From contig CACYEI010000059.1 in the NCBI GenBank assembly GCA_902773355.1, positions 1 through 32,134 of the forward strand: a stretch of DNA of 32,134 nucleotides. Direction: 5' to 3'. Made by a program: the position numbers and the translations under genes. Below, piece by piece: positions 6,827 through 13,631 of this stretch (position 1 is the first letter of the stretch; every line of letters starts with the position of its first letter). The DNA comes from an uncultured Spirochaetales bacterium (GTDB taxonomy: Bacteria > Spirochaetota > Spirochaetia > Sphaerochaetales > Sphaerochaetaceae). Below the pieces are notes generated by a model. It was not told where the DNA came from. It searched no databases and was given only the letters and a program-made list of their open reading frames with translations.

Positions 6827-8005
6827 CTATTCATAGCTTAAAGCATCTATTGGATTAAGTTTGGCTGCTTTTCTGGCTGGGTACCAACCAAAGAATACTC
6901 CTATTATAATGGAAAAACCAGCTGCAATAACAAAAGCTGTATAAGACAAATAAAGTTCCCATCCTACTATATCTGATAAAACTTTACTAAGAAGAATACC
7001 AAAAACAACTCCTATAAAAGCACCTACCATAGTTAAAGCTATAGCTTCTGTTAAAAACTGACCTCTTATAACCCTAGGAGAAGCTCCTAATGCTTTTCTG
7101 ATACCTATCTCTCTTGTTCTTTCCGCTACGGATACAAGCATTATATTCATAATTCCTATCCCACCAACTAAGAGAGAAATCCCTGCTATAGCCGCTAAAA
7201 ATGTACTAAATGTACCTGTTATTTCATCAGCTATTTGAACAAATGTAGCAGAAGAAAAAAGAGTAAAGTTTCTTGATTCTGTTAAAGAATTTAAATATGT
7301 TTCAATTTTATCTGAAACAGCTACTGTATCAAACCCTTCTGCAACTTTTATACTATAAAGACTAACAGCATTTACTTTTAAATAACGCTGAACATATGTA
7401 TTATAGGGTATATATACAGAATCATTATATGACATACTTAAAGAACCATCTTTTTCCTTCATTACCCCTATTACCTGATAGCTTTTTCCTGCATTACCTC
7501 TATATAAAGTTACATATTTTCCTATTGGATTTTCTCCATTAAATAAATCAGTAGCTATTGTATTCCCTAAAACTATGACCTGCCTTTTATTCATATTCTC
7601 ATTTTCAGAGAACCAAGTTCCTATATCTACTTCATAGCTCATTATCTGATTCCAGTCAGAATCTGTCCCGTAAAGCTGAAAGTTTGAATATTCTTTTTTA
7701 TAGCGTATTTTAACATTAGATGAATTCAAAGGTATTACAGAATCTATACCATCAATTTTTTCAATTAGTTCATCTCCAAAAGTTCTGGTAAAAATACCAT
7801 CTGTATTTCTTCTAACATAAAGGGAAATTAAACTTGTACCCGCACTATCAAGTGAGGAAGTGATACTTTTTGAAGCACTTTGTCCCAAAGTAAGAATAGC
7901 CACCACAGCCATTACACCTATGACAATACCCAATAAAGATAAAAGCGTTCTTAATTTATTTGCAAAAAGTGATTTAAATGCCAATTTAATATTTTCTATA
8001 ACCAT
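6827..8005 (-). CDS. MacB/FtsX-family ABC transporter permease
   Basis: This is the membrane subunit of a MacB- or LolCE-type mechanotransmission ABC transporter. The 392 residues give one N-terminal membrane segment (about 20-40, LLSLLGIVIGVMAVVAIL), a periplasmic MacB_PCD-like domain (about 45-265), and three C-terminal segments (about 265-290, 315-340, 350-378). It ends with the hallmark WYPARKAAKLNPIDAL. GAGAGG precedes the ATG. The ATPase is a separate upstream gene, unlike fused MacB of Escherichia coli. With the adaptor, ATPase and TolC-like genes it makes a complete trans-envelope pump. The cargo could be a macrolide, peptide or lipoprotein-like substrate and cannot be decided here. 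A 140-base repeat-rich gap separates it from the ATPase gene, unusually long inside an operon. Confidence 0.9.
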   Translation of the reverse strand: MVIENIKLAFKSLFANKLRTLLSLLGIVIGVMAVVAILTLGQSASKSITSSLDSAGTSLISLYVRRNTDGIFTRTFGDELIEKIDGIDSVIPLNSSNVKIRYKKEYSNFQLYGTDSDWNQIMSYEVDIGTWFSENENMNKRQVIVLGNTIATDLFNGENPIGKYVTLYRGNAGKSYQVIGVMKEKDGSLSMSYNDSVYIPYNTYVQRYLKVNAVSLYSIKVAEGFDTVAVSDKIETYLNSLTESRNFTLFSSATFVQIADEITGTFSTFLAAIAGISLLVGGIGIMNIMLVSVAERTREIGIRKALGASPRVIRGQFLTEAIALTMVGAFIGVVFGILLSKVLSDIVGWELYLSYTAFVIAAGFSIIIGVFFGWYPARKAAKLNPIDALSYE

Positions 8006-8063
8006 TACTTACCCTCTCAAATTAACCATCTCAAAACTACTCAAACAAAACTACTGAAAATAC

Positions 8064-8098
8064 ATATTCCATATTCTATATTCTATATTCCATATTCT
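8064..8098. repeat. Five tandem heptamers (ATATTCY)
   Basis: Five exact 7-base units run end to end: ATATTCC, ATATTCT, ATATTCT, ATATTCC, ATATTCT. The only variation is C/T in the seventh position. The array lies in the gap between the ABC ATPase and permease genes of the MacB-like operon, upstream of the permease ribosome site. No protein is encoded. Confidence 0.9.
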
Positions 8099-8109
8099 AT
8101 ACATATTAA

Positions 8110-8163
8110 TTATTTATTCATTTCAATTTATTTATGCATTTCAATCTATTTATGAATTTCAAT
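8110..8163 (-). repeat. Three tandem 18-base units overlapping the ATPase stop codon
   Basis: On the minus strand the units are ATTGAAATTCATAAATAG (8163-8146), ATTGAAATGCATAAATAA (8145-8128) and ATTGAAATGAATAAATAA (8127-8110). The first unit is the end of the ATPase gene, coding Ile-Glu-Ile-His-Lys-stop. The two downstream units are near-copies in the same frame (IEMHK-stop, IEMNK-stop), so the gene tail including its stop codon has been reiterated. Confidence 0.92.
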
Positions 8164-8847
8164 CTGGCCATCTCTGATTCTAATTATTTCATTACAGGAC
8201 ATACCTACATCATCACTATGTGTTACTACAACAATTGTTCTTCCTTCTTCATTTAACTGTGTAAACATATCCATAATCTGTAGACCTGTTTTTGAATCAA
8301 GTGCTCCAGTAGGTTCATCTGCTAAAACAAGTGATGGATCTGTAACTAAAGCCCTAGCTATAGCCACTCTCTGTTTCTGACCACCAGAAAGTTCAGTAGG
8401 CTTATGCTTCATTCTGTCTTTCAAACCAACTTTAATAAGAGACTCCTCTGCAAGTTCTCTGCGTTCAAACACACTAATATCATTGGAATAGATTAACGGC
8501 GTCATAACATTTTCCAAGGCATTTAACTTAGGAAGCAGATTAAACTGCTGAAAGACAAAACCTATCTTTTTATTTCTTACATATGCAAGTTCTGACTCAG
8601 ATAAATTACTTATATCTTCATTTTCAATAAATATCTGCCCTTCTGATGGAGTATCTAAACAACCTATTAAATTCATAAGCGTGGATTTGCCACTTCCAGA
8701 TGGCCCCATAATAGCTATATAATCATTTTTCAATATAGAAAACGAAACATTATTTAACGCCTTAACCACAGAGTCCCCTACAACAAAATATTTACTAATA
8801 TTTTTAAGTCTGATTACACAGTTATTCAATGTGTCTAAAACTGTCAT
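8146..8847 (-). CDS. MacB/LolD-type ABC transporter ATP-binding protein
   Basis: This is the cytoplasmic ATPase for the adjacent FtsX-like permease. Its 233 residues carry all ABC motifs: Walker A GPSGSGKST, signature LSGGQKQRVAIARAL, Walker B LVLADEPTGALD, and the switch histidine in VVVTHSDD. The sequence around FVFQQFNLLPKLNALENV is typical of the MacB/LolD subfamily. It begins 15 bases after the adaptor stop and has a weak ribosome site. Its last five codons and stop codon form the first unit of a tandem repeat that extends downstream. The split ATPase/permease arrangement is common outside the proteobacterial MacB. Confidence 0.95.
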   Translation of the reverse strand: MTVLDTLNNCVIRLKNISKYFVVGDSVVKALNNVSFSILKNDYIAIMGPSGSGKSTLMNLIGCLDTPSEGQIFIENEDISNLSESELAYVRNKKIGFVFQQFNLLPKLNALENVMTPLIYSNDISVFERRELAEESLIKVGLKDRMKHKPTELSGGQKQRVAIARALVTDPSLVLADEPTGALDSKTGLQIMDMFTQLNEEGRTIVVVTHSDDVGMSCNEIIRIRDGQIEIHK

Positions 8848-8862
8848 TTTCCACTTAACCTT

Positions 8863-9951
8863 TTATCTTACCATACTGCTTCTTGATGTATTTCTTGACT
8901 GCGGCTGTGTAAAAAACATATTTGACACTGAAGACTTAGTAGTATATACCAGCGTATCATCCGGGCTGACATTACCAGATAAAATCTGATAAGTATTTTC
9001 ACCTAGATATTTTACCTGAACTTGAACTTCTTCTGTACTTCCATCTGAAAGTTTTTTTGTAACATAACTATTACCACTTCTGGTAGTCACAGCGTCTTGC
9101 GTAACCAAAAGCATAGCATTTTCTGATTCTACAGAAATTATACCATTAAATGAGAAACCACTTTTTAATCTTTCAGGTGGATTAGGTATCTCTATCTCCA
9201 CATCAAGAACACCTATCCCATTATTAGAATACCTCCCTACAAGAGGGATATAAGAAACATATCCATCAAAATAGACACCTGGAAGAGCATCACTACTTAA
9301 AACCGCTTTAGTTGAGATATCTAAAAGCTGTGCATCTATTTCATCTACTTCTACTTTAGCCTTAAGTTTTGTATTATCTATAACAGTTGCTACTGTTGTT
9401 CCAGCTTGGGCATAATCATCCACATTAGCCTTAACGGATACAACTACACCATTAAAATTTGCATAGCATTTGGTTTTTTCCAAGTTTTGCTCGGCAATTT
9501 TTAATTTCTTCTCTAAAAGATCTAAATCTCTGGCACTGGAGTTTCCAACTATTTTAGCTTTTTCTAAGTTACGTTTAGCATCTTCCACACTATAAAGCTG
9601 TTCAGAATCTTCTAATTCAGCTATTAAATCACCTTTCTTTACTGAATCTCCTTCTTTAACATATACAGCAGAAATGGTTCCCTGAGCCTTAGTTACTACA
9701 TTTTGAGTCTGATATGCTTCTAAAGAACCTGAAATATCTATATTTGACACATATATTTCTTCTCTGATTTTAGTTTCAAGCTGAACAAGTTCTGTAGTTA
9801 ACTGTCTATTCAAACTATTTGATAATCTATTTGTACATGTTATAAACAATACAGTTAAAAGAGCAATAATAACTATAACTAAAACAGCTGTCTTTATTGT
9901 TTTTCTTTTCTTTTTGTTTCTACTATCCTTAATCAGTTCTTGATCATTCAT
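8863..9951 (-). CDS. MacA-like periplasmic adaptor (HlyD/RND membrane-fusion protein)
   Basis: The adaptor bridges the inner-membrane ABC permease and the outer-membrane channel. The 362 residues begin with a basic cytoplasmic tail (NKKKRKTIK), then one membrane anchor (about 21-38). A split biotinyl-lipoyl-like domain follows (ISAVYVKEGDSVKKGDLIAEL and ANFNGVVVSVKANVDDYAQAG) around a coiled-coil hairpin (about 115-160), then beta-barrel and membrane-proximal domains. It ends in a Ser/Arg/Gln-rich tail. GGAG precedes the ATG. It lies downstream of the TolC-like gene and 15 bases upstream of the ATPase gene, so all four genes probably act together. I keep the generic call because the substrate is unknown. 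Confidence 0.88.
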   Translation of the reverse strand: MNDQELIKDSRNKKKRKTIKTAVLVIVIIALLTVLFITCTNRLSNSLNRQLTTELVQLETKIREEIYVSNIDISGSLEAYQTQNVVTKAQGTISAVYVKEGDSVKKGDLIAELEDSEQLYSVEDAKRNLEKAKIVGNSSARDLDLLEKKLKIAEQNLEKTKCYANFNGVVVSVKANVDDYAQAGTTVATVIDNTKLKAKVEVDEIDAQLLDISTKAVLSSDALPGVYFDGYVSYIPLVGRYSNNGIGVLDVEIEIPNPPERLKSGFSFNGIISVESENAMLLVTQDAVTTRSGNSYVTKKLSDGSTEEVQVQVKYLGENTYQILSGNVSPDDTLVYTTKSSVSNMFFTQPQSRNTSRSSMVR

Positions 9952-9974
9952 TTTTTTCTCCGTATTTTTTCATT

Positions 9975-10000
9975 ATTTTTAATCAATATTTTTAATCAAT
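9975..10000. repeat. Perfect 13-base tandem duplication
   Basis: ATTTTTAATCAAT occurs twice in direct succession (9975-9987 and 9988-10000) in the gap between the TolC-like stop codon and the adaptor gene. Read on the minus strand the unit begins ATTGATTAAAAA and resembles the last codons of the TolC-like gene (TTG ATA AAT ATG). A further TAAATATGTA pair, 16 bases apart, overlaps that stop codon near 10013-10038. Confidence 0.85.
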
Positions 10001-10019
10001 TCTCTACATATTTAAATAT

Positions 10020-11450
10020 TTACATATTTATCAACTTAATTTTATATTCAAGCTGCAGCCCTTCCAATTTATGAATAAAATTATTAAAAGCATCTTCTTC
10101 TGTATCATTTACAGCCTGTTCATAATCATAATCACCAATCAAATTATTATCTTTCAACATCTGACTGTATGTAAGAATTTTTTGATGCGTAGATTCTACT
10201 TCCTTAAGATATTCTGATTTATTGTAAAAAGCATCTACATCATTAATAAGGGAAGAAACGTTAAGCCTATAATTATTTACTGCATCCAAATACTCTCTTT
10301 CGGCATCATTTAAATCATAAATCAACTGTTTAAGCTCTAATTCACTAACAGAACTCTTTTTAGACCCACCTTCATATTTTCCAGAAATAGTTACCGTGGG
10401 AATGGAAAACTTCCAATCATTAATATTTTCTTTAACATTTAAAGTTATAGTCCAATTTGAAGACTGATACTGAGCACCAGTAGTTAATGCCATGTCGGTA
10501 CCTAAATAACCACCTTTACTCTGAAATTTAACCGTAGGTGTTAACGAACCTGATAAATTAAGTTTTGATTTCAAGTCAGTTTTTTCTCTTATTTTTTCAT
10601 TAACCTGTTCTAACTTTAATTTCTTATTCAGTACAGAATAAGATGTAATATCTTCATCATTTTCTGGTATAATAAAACTTAAATCAGCATCTCTAATTTC
10701 TGTTACATCTACATATTCAGTTCCAAATTTGACAACAAAGTTATTTTTTAATGATACTAGACTTCTTTTTTGTTCATCTATTGATGCTTTAGCTTTATTC
10801 AGTTCACTTTGCCGTCTTAAATCTTCTGTAGAATTAGGAACCAAATCCCCCGAAAAAAGGTCAGTTTCATAATTATTCAAATTTCTGTTATAGCTTTTTT
10901 CTGCATTTAAAATATTATGTTCCAAATTCAATATAGAGCTCACGGATGAAATATAATTATTAATAAAGTTCAACCTTTCAGAATTATCCTTATATCTTTC
11001 ATTAAGTTCATCTATCCTATCTGAAATGTCATTTTCATTTTCATTTAAAGAAAAAGTCTTATTTAAAGATGTTCCTAAAGAAAGATTGTAAAAATTATTT
11101 TCATCAAGTCTAACAGAATGAACCGCAGTTCCTACTGTAGATGCTGAACCAAAAGATAGAGTATTAGATATTGTAAGATCATCTGCTATCTCGGGATATG
11201 TAACTGAAGCAGAAACAGCAGGTAAATAAAAACCGTTTCCTGAATAATCATCTGAAACAGTAACAGAGTACGCAGAACCTTTAATTTCATTTAGGGCTTT
11301 AGTTAATGACTGTCTTTCTTTAGATAAACCTAAACTTGTCTTATTATAACTGCTTTCCCAAGCCTTTATAGCCAAGCTCTCTAACTCTTCGGAAAATAAA
11401 GCTGATACACATATCATAAAAAGAATAATGATAATAGTTATTTTTTTCAT
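10020..11450 (-). CDS. TolC-like outer-membrane efflux channel of the MacAB-type pump
   Basis: The 476-residue protein has a Sec signal peptide (about 1-20, cleavage after LFS). Two blocks of alternating beta segments (around 60-130 and 300-370) alternate with long helical, coiled-coil-prone stretches rich in Asn, Glu, Lys and Leu (about 140-260 and 375-470). That layout matches the duplicated strand-helix-helix plan of TolC proteins, but no strong family signature is visible, so the call rests on layout and on being first in an operon with adaptor, ATPase and permease. A TTGACA-17-TATTTA promoter lies directly before the ATG with no ribosome site, so the mRNA may be leaderless. Short repeats overlap the stop codon. 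Confidence 0.7.
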   Translation of the reverse strand: MKKITIIIILFMICVSALFSEELESLAIKAWESSYNKTSLGLSKERQSLTKALNEIKGSAYSVTVSDDYSGNGFYLPAVSASVTYPEIADDLTISNTLSFGSASTVGTAVHSVRLDENNFYNLSLGTSLNKTFSLNENENDISDRIDELNERYKDNSERLNFINNYISSVSSILNLEHNILNAEKSYNRNLNNYETDLFSGDLVPNSTEDLRRQSELNKAKASIDEQKRSLVSLKNNFVVKFGTEYVDVTEIRDADLSFIIPENDEDITSYSVLNKKLKLEQVNEKIREKTDLKSKLNLSGSLTPTVKFQSKGGYLGTDMALTTGAQYQSSNWTITLNVKENINDWKFSIPTVTISGKYEGGSKKSSVSELELKQLIYDLNDAEREYLDAVNNYRLNVSSLINDVDAFYNKSEYLKEVESTHQKILTYSQMLKDNNLIGDYDYEQAVNDTEEDAFNNFIHKLEGLQLEYKIKLINM

Positions 11451-11458
11451 AAAATCTA

Positions 11459-11487
11459 TAAATAATGAATATAAAACGACCTGTCAA
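11459..11487 (-). promoter_or_regulatory. Sigma-70-type promoter of the MacAB-TolC-like operon
   Basis: On the minus strand a perfect -35 TTGACA (11487-11482) and a -10 TATTTA (11464-11459) are separated by exactly 17 bases. Only 8 bases lie between the -10 box and the ATG at 11450, so transcription would start at or within about three bases of the start codon. No Shine-Dalgarno sequence is present. Confidence 0.65.
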
Positions 11488-11541
11488 TATTCAGTCTGAA
11501 ATTCTACTTTTATTTCAAGTTTCTATAAAACATATCTATAT

Positions 11542-11592
11542 TAAGTTATATTTCTACTAAAATTATATCTCTACTAAAATTATATTTCTACT
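11542..11592 (-). repeat. Three tandem 17-base units overlapping a stop codon
   Basis: On the minus strand AGTAGAAATATAATTTT (11592-11576) is followed by AGTAGAGATATAATTTT (11575-11559, one difference) and AGTAGAAATATAACTTA (11558-11542, two differences). The first unit carries the last codons and TAA stop of the small barrel gene (Val-Glu-Ile-stop). The unit is not a multiple of three, so downstream copies lie in other frames. Confidence 0.92.
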
Positions 11593-12185
11593 GAGAAATA
11601 AGCTCTTATAACAAGTGAACTTAAAGATTTATCTATTGATATTTTTTTATTTTCAAAACGTGGATTAACTAAGGAGATGGAACCCTCTAAACCAAGTCCT
11701 ATGGTATCATTTAAACGTCCTCTAGCCCCACCCTGTAGTACTAGACCAAATTTCTGACTGAAATTTTTTATACCATTGTAATCAAAGATTAAAATACACG
11801 CACCAAAAGCACCATAAATTTCAAAAGATTTCTTTAACAAATATCTATAATCTAACGTTATCTCATAATGTGTCTGTACTTCTGAAAAACCATTAAAAAT
11901 TCTAGTAAAACCTGCTACATCAATATTAAATTTAATACCTAAAGAAAATTTATCTTCAAATCTAGCTGGGGTAAAAATCAATGAATAATACATTCCAAAA
12001 TCAATATGTTTATCTGATTCAAAAATTTCCACATGTACACTTGGACCTACGTTAAAATTAAACTGAGATAAATCATTTCTAGTTATATGACTTACTGACT
12101 CATCATAAGCACATACATAGAACAAACTAAACATTAAATAAAAGATAAGAGGTAATAATTTACTAATTGATCTTATTTTTCCCAT
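11580..12185 (-). CDS. Small outer-membrane beta-barrel-like protein, function unknown
   Basis: A 201-residue secreted protein of no family I can name. The N-terminus has a basic start and a hydrophobic stretch (LLPLIFYLMFSLFYVCA), a probable signal peptide cut near residue 26. The rest is strand after strand of alternating residues with glycine turns (FGMYYSLIF, LGIKFNIDVAG, YEITLDYRYLL, IYGAFGACIL, LGLEGSISL), and it ends with aromatic-rich strand AYFSVEI. This is the appearance of an 8-stranded barrel of the opacity/OmpW size class. Its ATG lies inside the end of the nucleotidyltransferase gene (13-base overlap), implying coupled translation. The end of the gene forms the first unit of a tandem repeat. 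Confidence 0.7.
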   Translation of the reverse strand: MGKIRSISKLLPLIFYLMFSLFYVCAYDESVSHITRNDLSQFNFNVGPSVHVEIFESDKHIDFGMYYSLIFTPARFEDKFSLGIKFNIDVAGFTRIFNGFSEVQTHYEITLDYRYLLKKSFEIYGAFGACILIFDYNGIKNFSQKFGLVLQGGARGRLNDTIGLGLEGSISLVNPRFENKKISIDKSLSSLVIRAYFSVEI

Positions 12186-13081
12186 AATTTTATTGGATAA
12201 ACTCCGCTTTCTGTCTTTTCTTTTAAGCTTTTTCTTACCATCTCTCTGTCTTCAATATAAGTCATGCCAAACCATTTTTCTGGTGTATTAAAAACTTGTA
12301 AACTTCCTTCTCCATTATCTATTATTTCAGAAAGACAATCTGAAAGTATATATTCGGCTTTTAAATCAAGAATTGAATTTTCCCAGAATTTATACAAATA
12401 TTTTTTCATTAAATTTAAAACATTTGGTGTAAGACCAAATAAATTCATTGAAACTGTTTCTTCCCCAGTTAAAAATAAATTCTTTCCATGATAATGTGAA
12501 ACAATTCTATCATTTTGATACTGTATTTCCTTATGCTCAGTAAGTTTAGTCAAATAGCTATCTTTTACTTCACAAATTCCTCTACTTACAGAACCTTTTA
12601 AACTCATGGTATTTTTTAATAAATAACCAACTAGAGAATATCTATTACTGTCATTATTTATACCACTTAAATATGAACCTAAAATTTGAAAAGATTTAAG
12701 CCCATAATAGTCATCTGAGTTTATTATGGCAAAAGGATTATTTAAATATTTTTCTGCAGAAAGAACTGCCTGAACCGTTCCCCAGGGTTTTTTTCTTTCA
12801 GTACTTAATTTAATCTGTTTTTCAGACATTAATGTTGTTGTGGTCTGAAAGACATATGAAGCATCAGCATTTTTTGCTATTCTGTCAAATAATACTTCTC
12901 TGAATTCTTTTTCTATATCAGGTCTTATTATAAAAACAATTTTTTTAAATCCACTTCTTAAAGCATCATAACAACTATAATCTAAAAGAGTCTCTCCGTT
13001 ATTTCCCACTCTCTCCAGCTGTTTTATACCGCCATATCTAGATCCTATTCCAGCTGCTAAAACTAACAATATTGGTTCCAT
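12173..13081 (-). CDS. Sugar-1-phosphate nucleotidyltransferase-like protein
   Basis: A 302-residue GT-A-fold nucleotidyltransferase. The nucleotide-binding signature LVLAAGIGSRYGGIKQ is at 6-21, a KPWGTVQAVL segment at 98-107, and NSDDYYG at 121-127 supplies the metal/nucleotide-binding aspartates. Such enzymes activate sugar phosphates, or choline-type phosphates, with UTP or CTP for envelope glycans; the exact substrate is not readable. It has no signal peptide. GGAG lies about 7 bases before the ATG. It starts 24 bases downstream of the tRNA-Arg gene and overlaps the following barrel gene by 13 bases, so tRNA, nucleotidyltransferase and barrel gene may be co-transcribed. Confidence 0.8.
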   Translation of the reverse strand: MEPILLVLAAGIGSRYGGIKQLERVGNNGETLLDYSCYDALRSGFKKIVFIIRPDIEKEFREVLFDRIAKNADASYVFQTTTTLMSEKQIKLSTERKKPWGTVQAVLSAEKYLNNPFAIINSDDYYGLKSFQILGSYLSGINNDSNRYSLVGYLLKNTMSLKGSVSRGICEVKDSYLTKLTEHKEIQYQNDRIVSHYHGKNLFLTGEETVSMNLFGLTPNVLNLMKKYLYKFWENSILDLKAEYILSDCLSEIIDNGEGSLQVFNTPEKWFGMTYIEDREMVRKSLKEKTESGVYPIKLWEK

Positions 13082-13105
13082 TTAAATCTCCATTTAAATA
13101 ATAAT

Positions 13106-13177
13106 TAGGCATGCAGGGAATTGAACCCTGATTATATCCTCCGGAGGGATACGTTCTATCCGTTATACTACATGCCC
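13106..13177 (-). tRNA. tRNA-Arg (anticodon CCG)
   Basis: The minus strand folds as a 72-nt cloverleaf. The acceptor is GGGCATG/CATGCCT with a G-T first pair. The anticodon stem is TATCC/GGATA with loop CTCCGGA, so T33 and anticodon CCG reading Arg codon CGG. The T stem is CAGGG/CCCTG with loop TTCAATT. The D arm (GTAT/GAAC) has GG in its loop but an A-A mismatch in the stem. The discriminator is A and CCA is not encoded. It sits between two same-strand protein genes with gaps of only 16 and 24 bases. Confidence 0.9.
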
Positions 13178-13193
13178 TTAATCATAATTTATA

Positions 13194-13631
13194 TTATTGC
13201 TCCTTTTTATAATATCCAAATTTATCTTTTTCATTAAAATTTTCTAACGTAAGAAGATATGCCCCATCTGGGTTAACAGAAAAGTGAAATGAGTAAGAAT
13301 CTACCAAAAACTTATTTTCTTCTAGTGTTTTTAATTCATACTCAGTATATCCACTACCTACATATGAGCGGACTAAAGTTCTGTCAACAAATTCTATTCT
13401 ATCACCAAGGATTTTTTCTCCACTGCTGTAAACCCAAAGCGAATTTTCATAAATATCTGCCCAATCATTATCTGTTTTTACTGATTTAGAATTTACAATA
13501 TTAGAAAAAATTAAAAATACAGACAGTGAAACTATTATTGCTATAACAATTACTATTAGCAATAAACTAAAGAATTTTCTTTTTTCTTCTTTAGACATTT
13601 TTTTTAATGTGTCTGAAAGATTCTTTCCCAT
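13194..13631 (-). CDS. Small single-pass membrane protein, unknown function
   Basis: This 145-residue protein matches no family I recognise. A basic N-terminal region (KKMSKEEKRKFF) leads into one strong membrane segment (about 22-46, LLLIVIVIAIIVSLSVFLIF). About 100 residues outside the membrane follow, predicted to be strand-rich (WVYSSGEKILGDRIEF, RSYVGSGYTEYEL, YLLTLENF). It is probably a membrane-anchored periplasmic domain. It starts 32 bases after the ParB-like gene and ends 16 bases before the tRNA, so it is likely the second gene of a short operon. The ribosome site is weak. Confidence 0.7.
   Translation of the reverse strand: MGKNLSDTLKKMSKEEKRKFFSLLLIVIVIAIIVSLSVFLIFSNIVNSKSVKTDNDWADIYENSLWVYSSGEKILGDRIEFVDRTLVRSYVGSGYTEYELKTLEENKFLVDSYSFHFSVNPDGAYLLTLENFNEKDKFGYYKKEQ

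Follow-up and report, generated by a model that had tools for sequence, protein, structure and literature searches.

The window (the whole 32,134-nucleotide stretch of DNA that was analysed, from an uncultured Spirochaetales bacterium) carries on its minus strand a small outer-membrane beta-barrel gene and, downstream of it, a TolC-like outer-membrane efflux gene, which is followed by HlyD/MacA-like, LolD/MacB-ATPase-like and MacB-permease-like genes. The barrel gene falls just under the cut-off of PF13505 OMP_b-brl (E 6.1e-06; 27 bits, cut-off 28.7). The TolC-like gene of the window itself has no profile match, and two of eight aligned members of its family match PF02321 OEP. The host genome (1.18 Mb, 97 contigs) is 97.8% complete. 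A tandem array of three 17-nt units lies on the minus strand within positions 11542-11592, in the numbering of the whole stretch, at the end of the barrel gene. The features are listed below, with unit coordinates registered on the codons of that gene.

11580..12185, minus strand: small outer-membrane beta-barrel gene, 201 aa (open reading frame; near-threshold PF13505 match; Glu200 invariant in orthologues)
11575..11591, minus strand: unit 1, GTAGAAATATAATTTTA, coding end, stop and 5 nt, 0 mismatches
11562..11590, minus strand: candidate promoter-like pair TAGAAA-17-TATAAT, a product of the repeat period
11558..11574, minus strand: unit 2, GTAGAGATATAATTTTA, noncoding copy, 1 mismatch
11541..11557, minus strand: unit 3, GTAGAAATATAACTTAA, noncoding copy, 2 mismatches
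10020..11450, minus strand: TolC-like outer-membrane efflux gene, downstream of the 17-nt array (OEP matches in the family alignment)

Most of unit 1 consists of the last codons of the barrel gene, GTA GAA ATA TAA (Val-Glu-Ile-stop of the minus-strand frame 11580-12185), so that the stop codon lies inside the unit and the open reading frame is intact in the first copy. Three 17-base units starting in Val-Glu-Ile-stop had been reported in a preliminary description of this DNA, and they are present at 11541-11591, where TRF gives a score of 87 with 2.8 copies and 93% matches. Head-to-tail copies of one 17-nt unit are thus beyond chance, as dinucleotide shuffling of the 170 nt from 11451 to 11620, repeated 10,000 times, produced just 3 arrays that scored at least 80. 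Exact 17-nt spacing is kept across the three units despite their accumulated substitutions. An alternative TRF reading has a 34-nt period and extends to 11520. A decayed fourth or older unit further downstream was also considered and rejected, its best candidate matching at 12 of 17 positions, a level equalled in 250 of 2000 shuffles and not significant.

Comparison with relatives gives the array a direction. A search of 139 family genomes located the barrel in 12, its own included, and 10 of the 11 other loci have a readable gene end (7 + 3; the weak match L085 was left out). The same terminal strand ends the protein in all ten orthologues (for example YLSYEI, YLSFEI, YFSVEF, YISAEI and YGSIEL), with one extra residue in two of them (SIEIF, SIEAF), and Glu200 is invariant in an eight-sequence alignment. 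When these loci were compared for the presence and number of units, as had been suggested beforehand, no copies were seen: no tandem array with a TRF score of at least 30 occurs from -60 to +200 of the stop in any of the ten, and their last 12 bases recur at best at 6-8 of 12 positions, against 12 of 12 in the window. Neither the 61 nor the 139 genomes compared include one of the same genus. Since the orthologues share the coding end without the repeats, the 17-nt unit derives from ancestral coding sequence, which was then copied outward in this lineage. The preliminary description had held that orthologues with the same conserved but unrepeated sequence would imply coincidence; the coding end is indeed common to them without repeats, but this makes the array derived and lineage-specific and not coincidental.

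The same description pointed to a second array, of 18-base units, that likewise copies the end and stop of its own gene, and this is borne out: the array at 8111-8165 covers the stop at 8146. The gene concerned is that of the LolD/MacB-like ATPase (IEIHK-stop). In the relative L091 the LolD/MacB-like ATPase shares IRDGxIE and has a different end, which places the copied end of the 18-base array in a poorly conserved tail. Beyond this array there is a further one of 7/14-base GAATATA/GAATATG units (8063-8101).

Whether two such arrays amount to a pattern was judged from a census of 372,416 bases, made up of the window and 40 stretches of its own genome (two of them joined) with 322 gene ends; arrays had a TRF score of at least 50, a period of at least 7 and a length below 300, and genes were simple, uncurated open reading frames of at least 80 codons. 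Fifty arrays were found in this sample, five of them overlapping a stop. Among the 23 that touch spacers, these five compare with 3.9 expected when arrays of the same length are dropped at random on positions touching noncoding DNA. Raising the TRF threshold to 60 leaves 2 overlaps (2.1 expected), and lowering it to 45 gives 9 against 5.3, a mild excess. In a second approach, the last 14 bases of a gene were scored as recurring when at least 12 of 14 matched within 8-40 nt. By this measure gene ends (2 of 95) recur no more often than spacer points (13 of 848; Fisher p = 0.66), and coding points do so once in 799. Both positive gene ends, which have the strongest copies of the whole sample, sit in this one window; the pair noticed earlier is therefore real but unrepresentative, and the pattern of stop-copying arrays that it implied finds no support beyond chance placement. 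There is no clear enrichment at stops, and the stop overlap of the 17-nt array is where the array chanced to land. A much longer tandem repeat, of about 495 bases (1.9 copies, 82% alike), occurs at 82-1043 of L046, where it lies within a long open frame near the end of a contig.

Arrays of this type have been described elsewhere. Of 88 VNTRs reported for Yersinia pestis, 10 extend over a stop codon, among them M59/ms05 with a 17-bp unit ending in the stop (PMC3689786), a share similar to the 5 of 50 arrays found here. As far as that account describes them, these VNTRs resemble the present array in being short tandem units that span a gene's 3' end together with its stop, and in that changes of copy number are expected to spare the open reading frame. 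Copy-number polymorphism, the usual mark of slippage, was measured in Y. pestis, whereas the array here is known from one genome with three units only, and the two hosts differ in phylum and base composition. The stop-overlapping VNTRs discussed in that paper show low diversity, for which its authors suggest some selection (PMC3689786); by analogy, this would count mildly against strict neutrality. The 17-nt array is, in sum, a real but ordinary stop-overlapping tandem array of a kind already known.

Several functional explanations can be set against a neutral origin, and a role in transcription initiation is the only one with something concrete behind it. According to this explanation, the duplication created or tunes the promoter of the downstream TolC/MacAB-like operon, whose expression would change with copy number. 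Exactly 17 nt separate the TAGAAA of one unit from the TATAAT of the next, and the resulting pair matches 10 of 12 consensus positions on the strand of the operon, 111 nt before the TolC-like ATG. The promoter that the preliminary description had placed beyond the array, nearer the TolC-like gene, is not borne out, as the TTGACA just upstream of that gene is not followed at 16-18 nt by a consensus -10. There is also a precedent in Mycobacterium tuberculosis, where the repeat length of the rnc-fpg1 spacer VNTR has been linked by experiment to the expression of the downstream gene fpg1 (PMC2734929). As reported there, it shares with the present case lineage-specific tandem repeats and a spacer that is short in relatives, and differs in starting 40 bp past the stop, in its longer compound units and in the experimental link to expression. 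Against this explanation, promoter-like sites in the region occur at the shuffle rate (33 against 30.2, sd 6.1) and TAGAAA matches the -35 consensus at just 4 of 6 positions. Strong pairs upstream of genes in this genome have the same count at 17 nt on the reverse strand (10 and 10), which makes the scan low-powered, and the promoter signal of the genome itself is too weak for calibration. It is thus quite unlikely that the array created or tunes this promoter. The fuller proposal, that a 17-nt duplication turned coding DNA into a promoter with a copy-number-tunable start for the efflux operon, is very unlikely; the repeat period does equal the optimal -35/-10 spacer, and on this view the duplicated TAGAAATATAAT block would have set -35-like and -10 boxes at consensus spacing. 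As a separate observation on this gene, positions 11450-11490 of the window hold no obvious Shine-Dalgarno sequence before the TolC-like ATG, and a simple Shine-Dalgarno motif is absent from 76 of 118 upstream regions of the sample.

Alternatively, the units could work at the RNA level, in transcription termination, in the stability of the mRNA 3' end or as back-up stops behind the barrel gene. The 17-nt unit does yield TAA, TAG and TAG in frame, one shortly after another, and stops in every reading frame, but extra stops are expected anyway in spacers of 25% GC and the barrel orthologues do without the units. The array region folds slightly worse than its shuffled versions (z = +0.61; 143 of 200 shuffles fold at least equally well). 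The array lacks the stable G+C-rich hairpin and adjoining T run of an intrinsic terminator, the only terminator-like site in 8000-13200 being at 12786-12769, away from it, and the array has no Rfam match. An RNA-level role is therefore highly improbable. The preliminary description had argued for a cause at the DNA or RNA level. Its DNA-level half fits a lineage-specific duplication, while its RNA-level half is left unsupported by the fold, the terminator and the Rfam results. The further argument, that a non-triplet period rules out protein-level selection on the downstream copies, has little force, since a copy located past a stop codon is noncoding at any period, and this applies alike to the 18-base array, whose period is a triplet one.

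It is extremely improbable that the units serve as a tandem operator, bound by a regulator of the efflux operon. The array does lie, with its repeats, between the barrel gene and that operon, but the 29-mer pair has no other match in the genome with up to 3 mismatches, no inverted repeat of at least 10 nt occurs within the array and no regulator match was found among the immediate neighbour genes scanned. A dispersed repeat element (MIRU, TAACTGA type) was rejected, since the 29-mer occurs only here in the genome (up to 3 mismatches) and the 17-mer only here in the window. The 7-nt TAACTGA unit of marine Beggiatoaceae, for which a shared regulatory role has been proposed (PMC4679880), likewise forms direct repeats in spacers, and some of the sets described overlap the upstream stop ahead of a downstream gene. 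One unit recurs there at 169 sets, whereas the arrays of the present genome differ from one another in their units, and the 17-nt one is found once in the genome.

Short tandem arrays are abundant in the spacers of this genome. In the 372-kb sample (28.6% GC; spacers 25%), 22 spacer arrays score at least 50, where dinucleotide shuffles average 2.85, and five score at least 80, a level that no array reached in 40 shuffles. Their periods are scattered over 10-34 nt, and a period of 17 is thus not privileged. In a comparison with small samples from five further genomes (2.3-10.4 kb of spacers each), array density per 10 kb is 7.5 in the own genome, 7.8 in G012, a family relative with 43% GC, 1.2 each in G018 and G021, and 0 in G010 and G054. 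G054 is as AT-rich as the own genome and has no array in 2.3 kb of spacers, which speaks weakly against AT content alone as the cause. A loss of mismatch repair does not account for so many arrays, as both mutS (747 bits) and mutL (389 bits) are intact and above cut-off. Loops of 17 nt are a poor substrate for mismatch repair.

The array is most probably a near-neutral slipped-strand duplication, and many such arrays occupy the AT-rich spacers of this genome; slippage as the mechanism and near-neutrality are both what we infer. Slipped-strand mispairing, or an equivalent RecA-independent slip, would have added to the spacer, in tandem, two outward copies of a short tract composed of the final 12 bases of the barrel gene and the 5 that follow. 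Because the codons and the stop are intact in unit 1, the protein is unchanged, and the spacer would carry the further units as near-neutral DNA in which point substitutions accumulate. Speaking against it are the exact 17-nt spacing kept by units that have diverged, the mild excess of stop overlaps at the TRF threshold of 45 and the location of the two strongest gene-end copies in this one window. An incidental effect on the promoter of the downstream operon is possible.

These results carry a caution for the reading of single loci. Two stop-copying arrays in one window suggest a pattern, but across 372 kb of the genome stop overlaps are about as frequent as random placement predicts. Of greater interest is that the spacers of a reduced, AT-rich spirochaete hold roughly eight times as many short tandem arrays as their shuffles, despite intact mutS and mutL.
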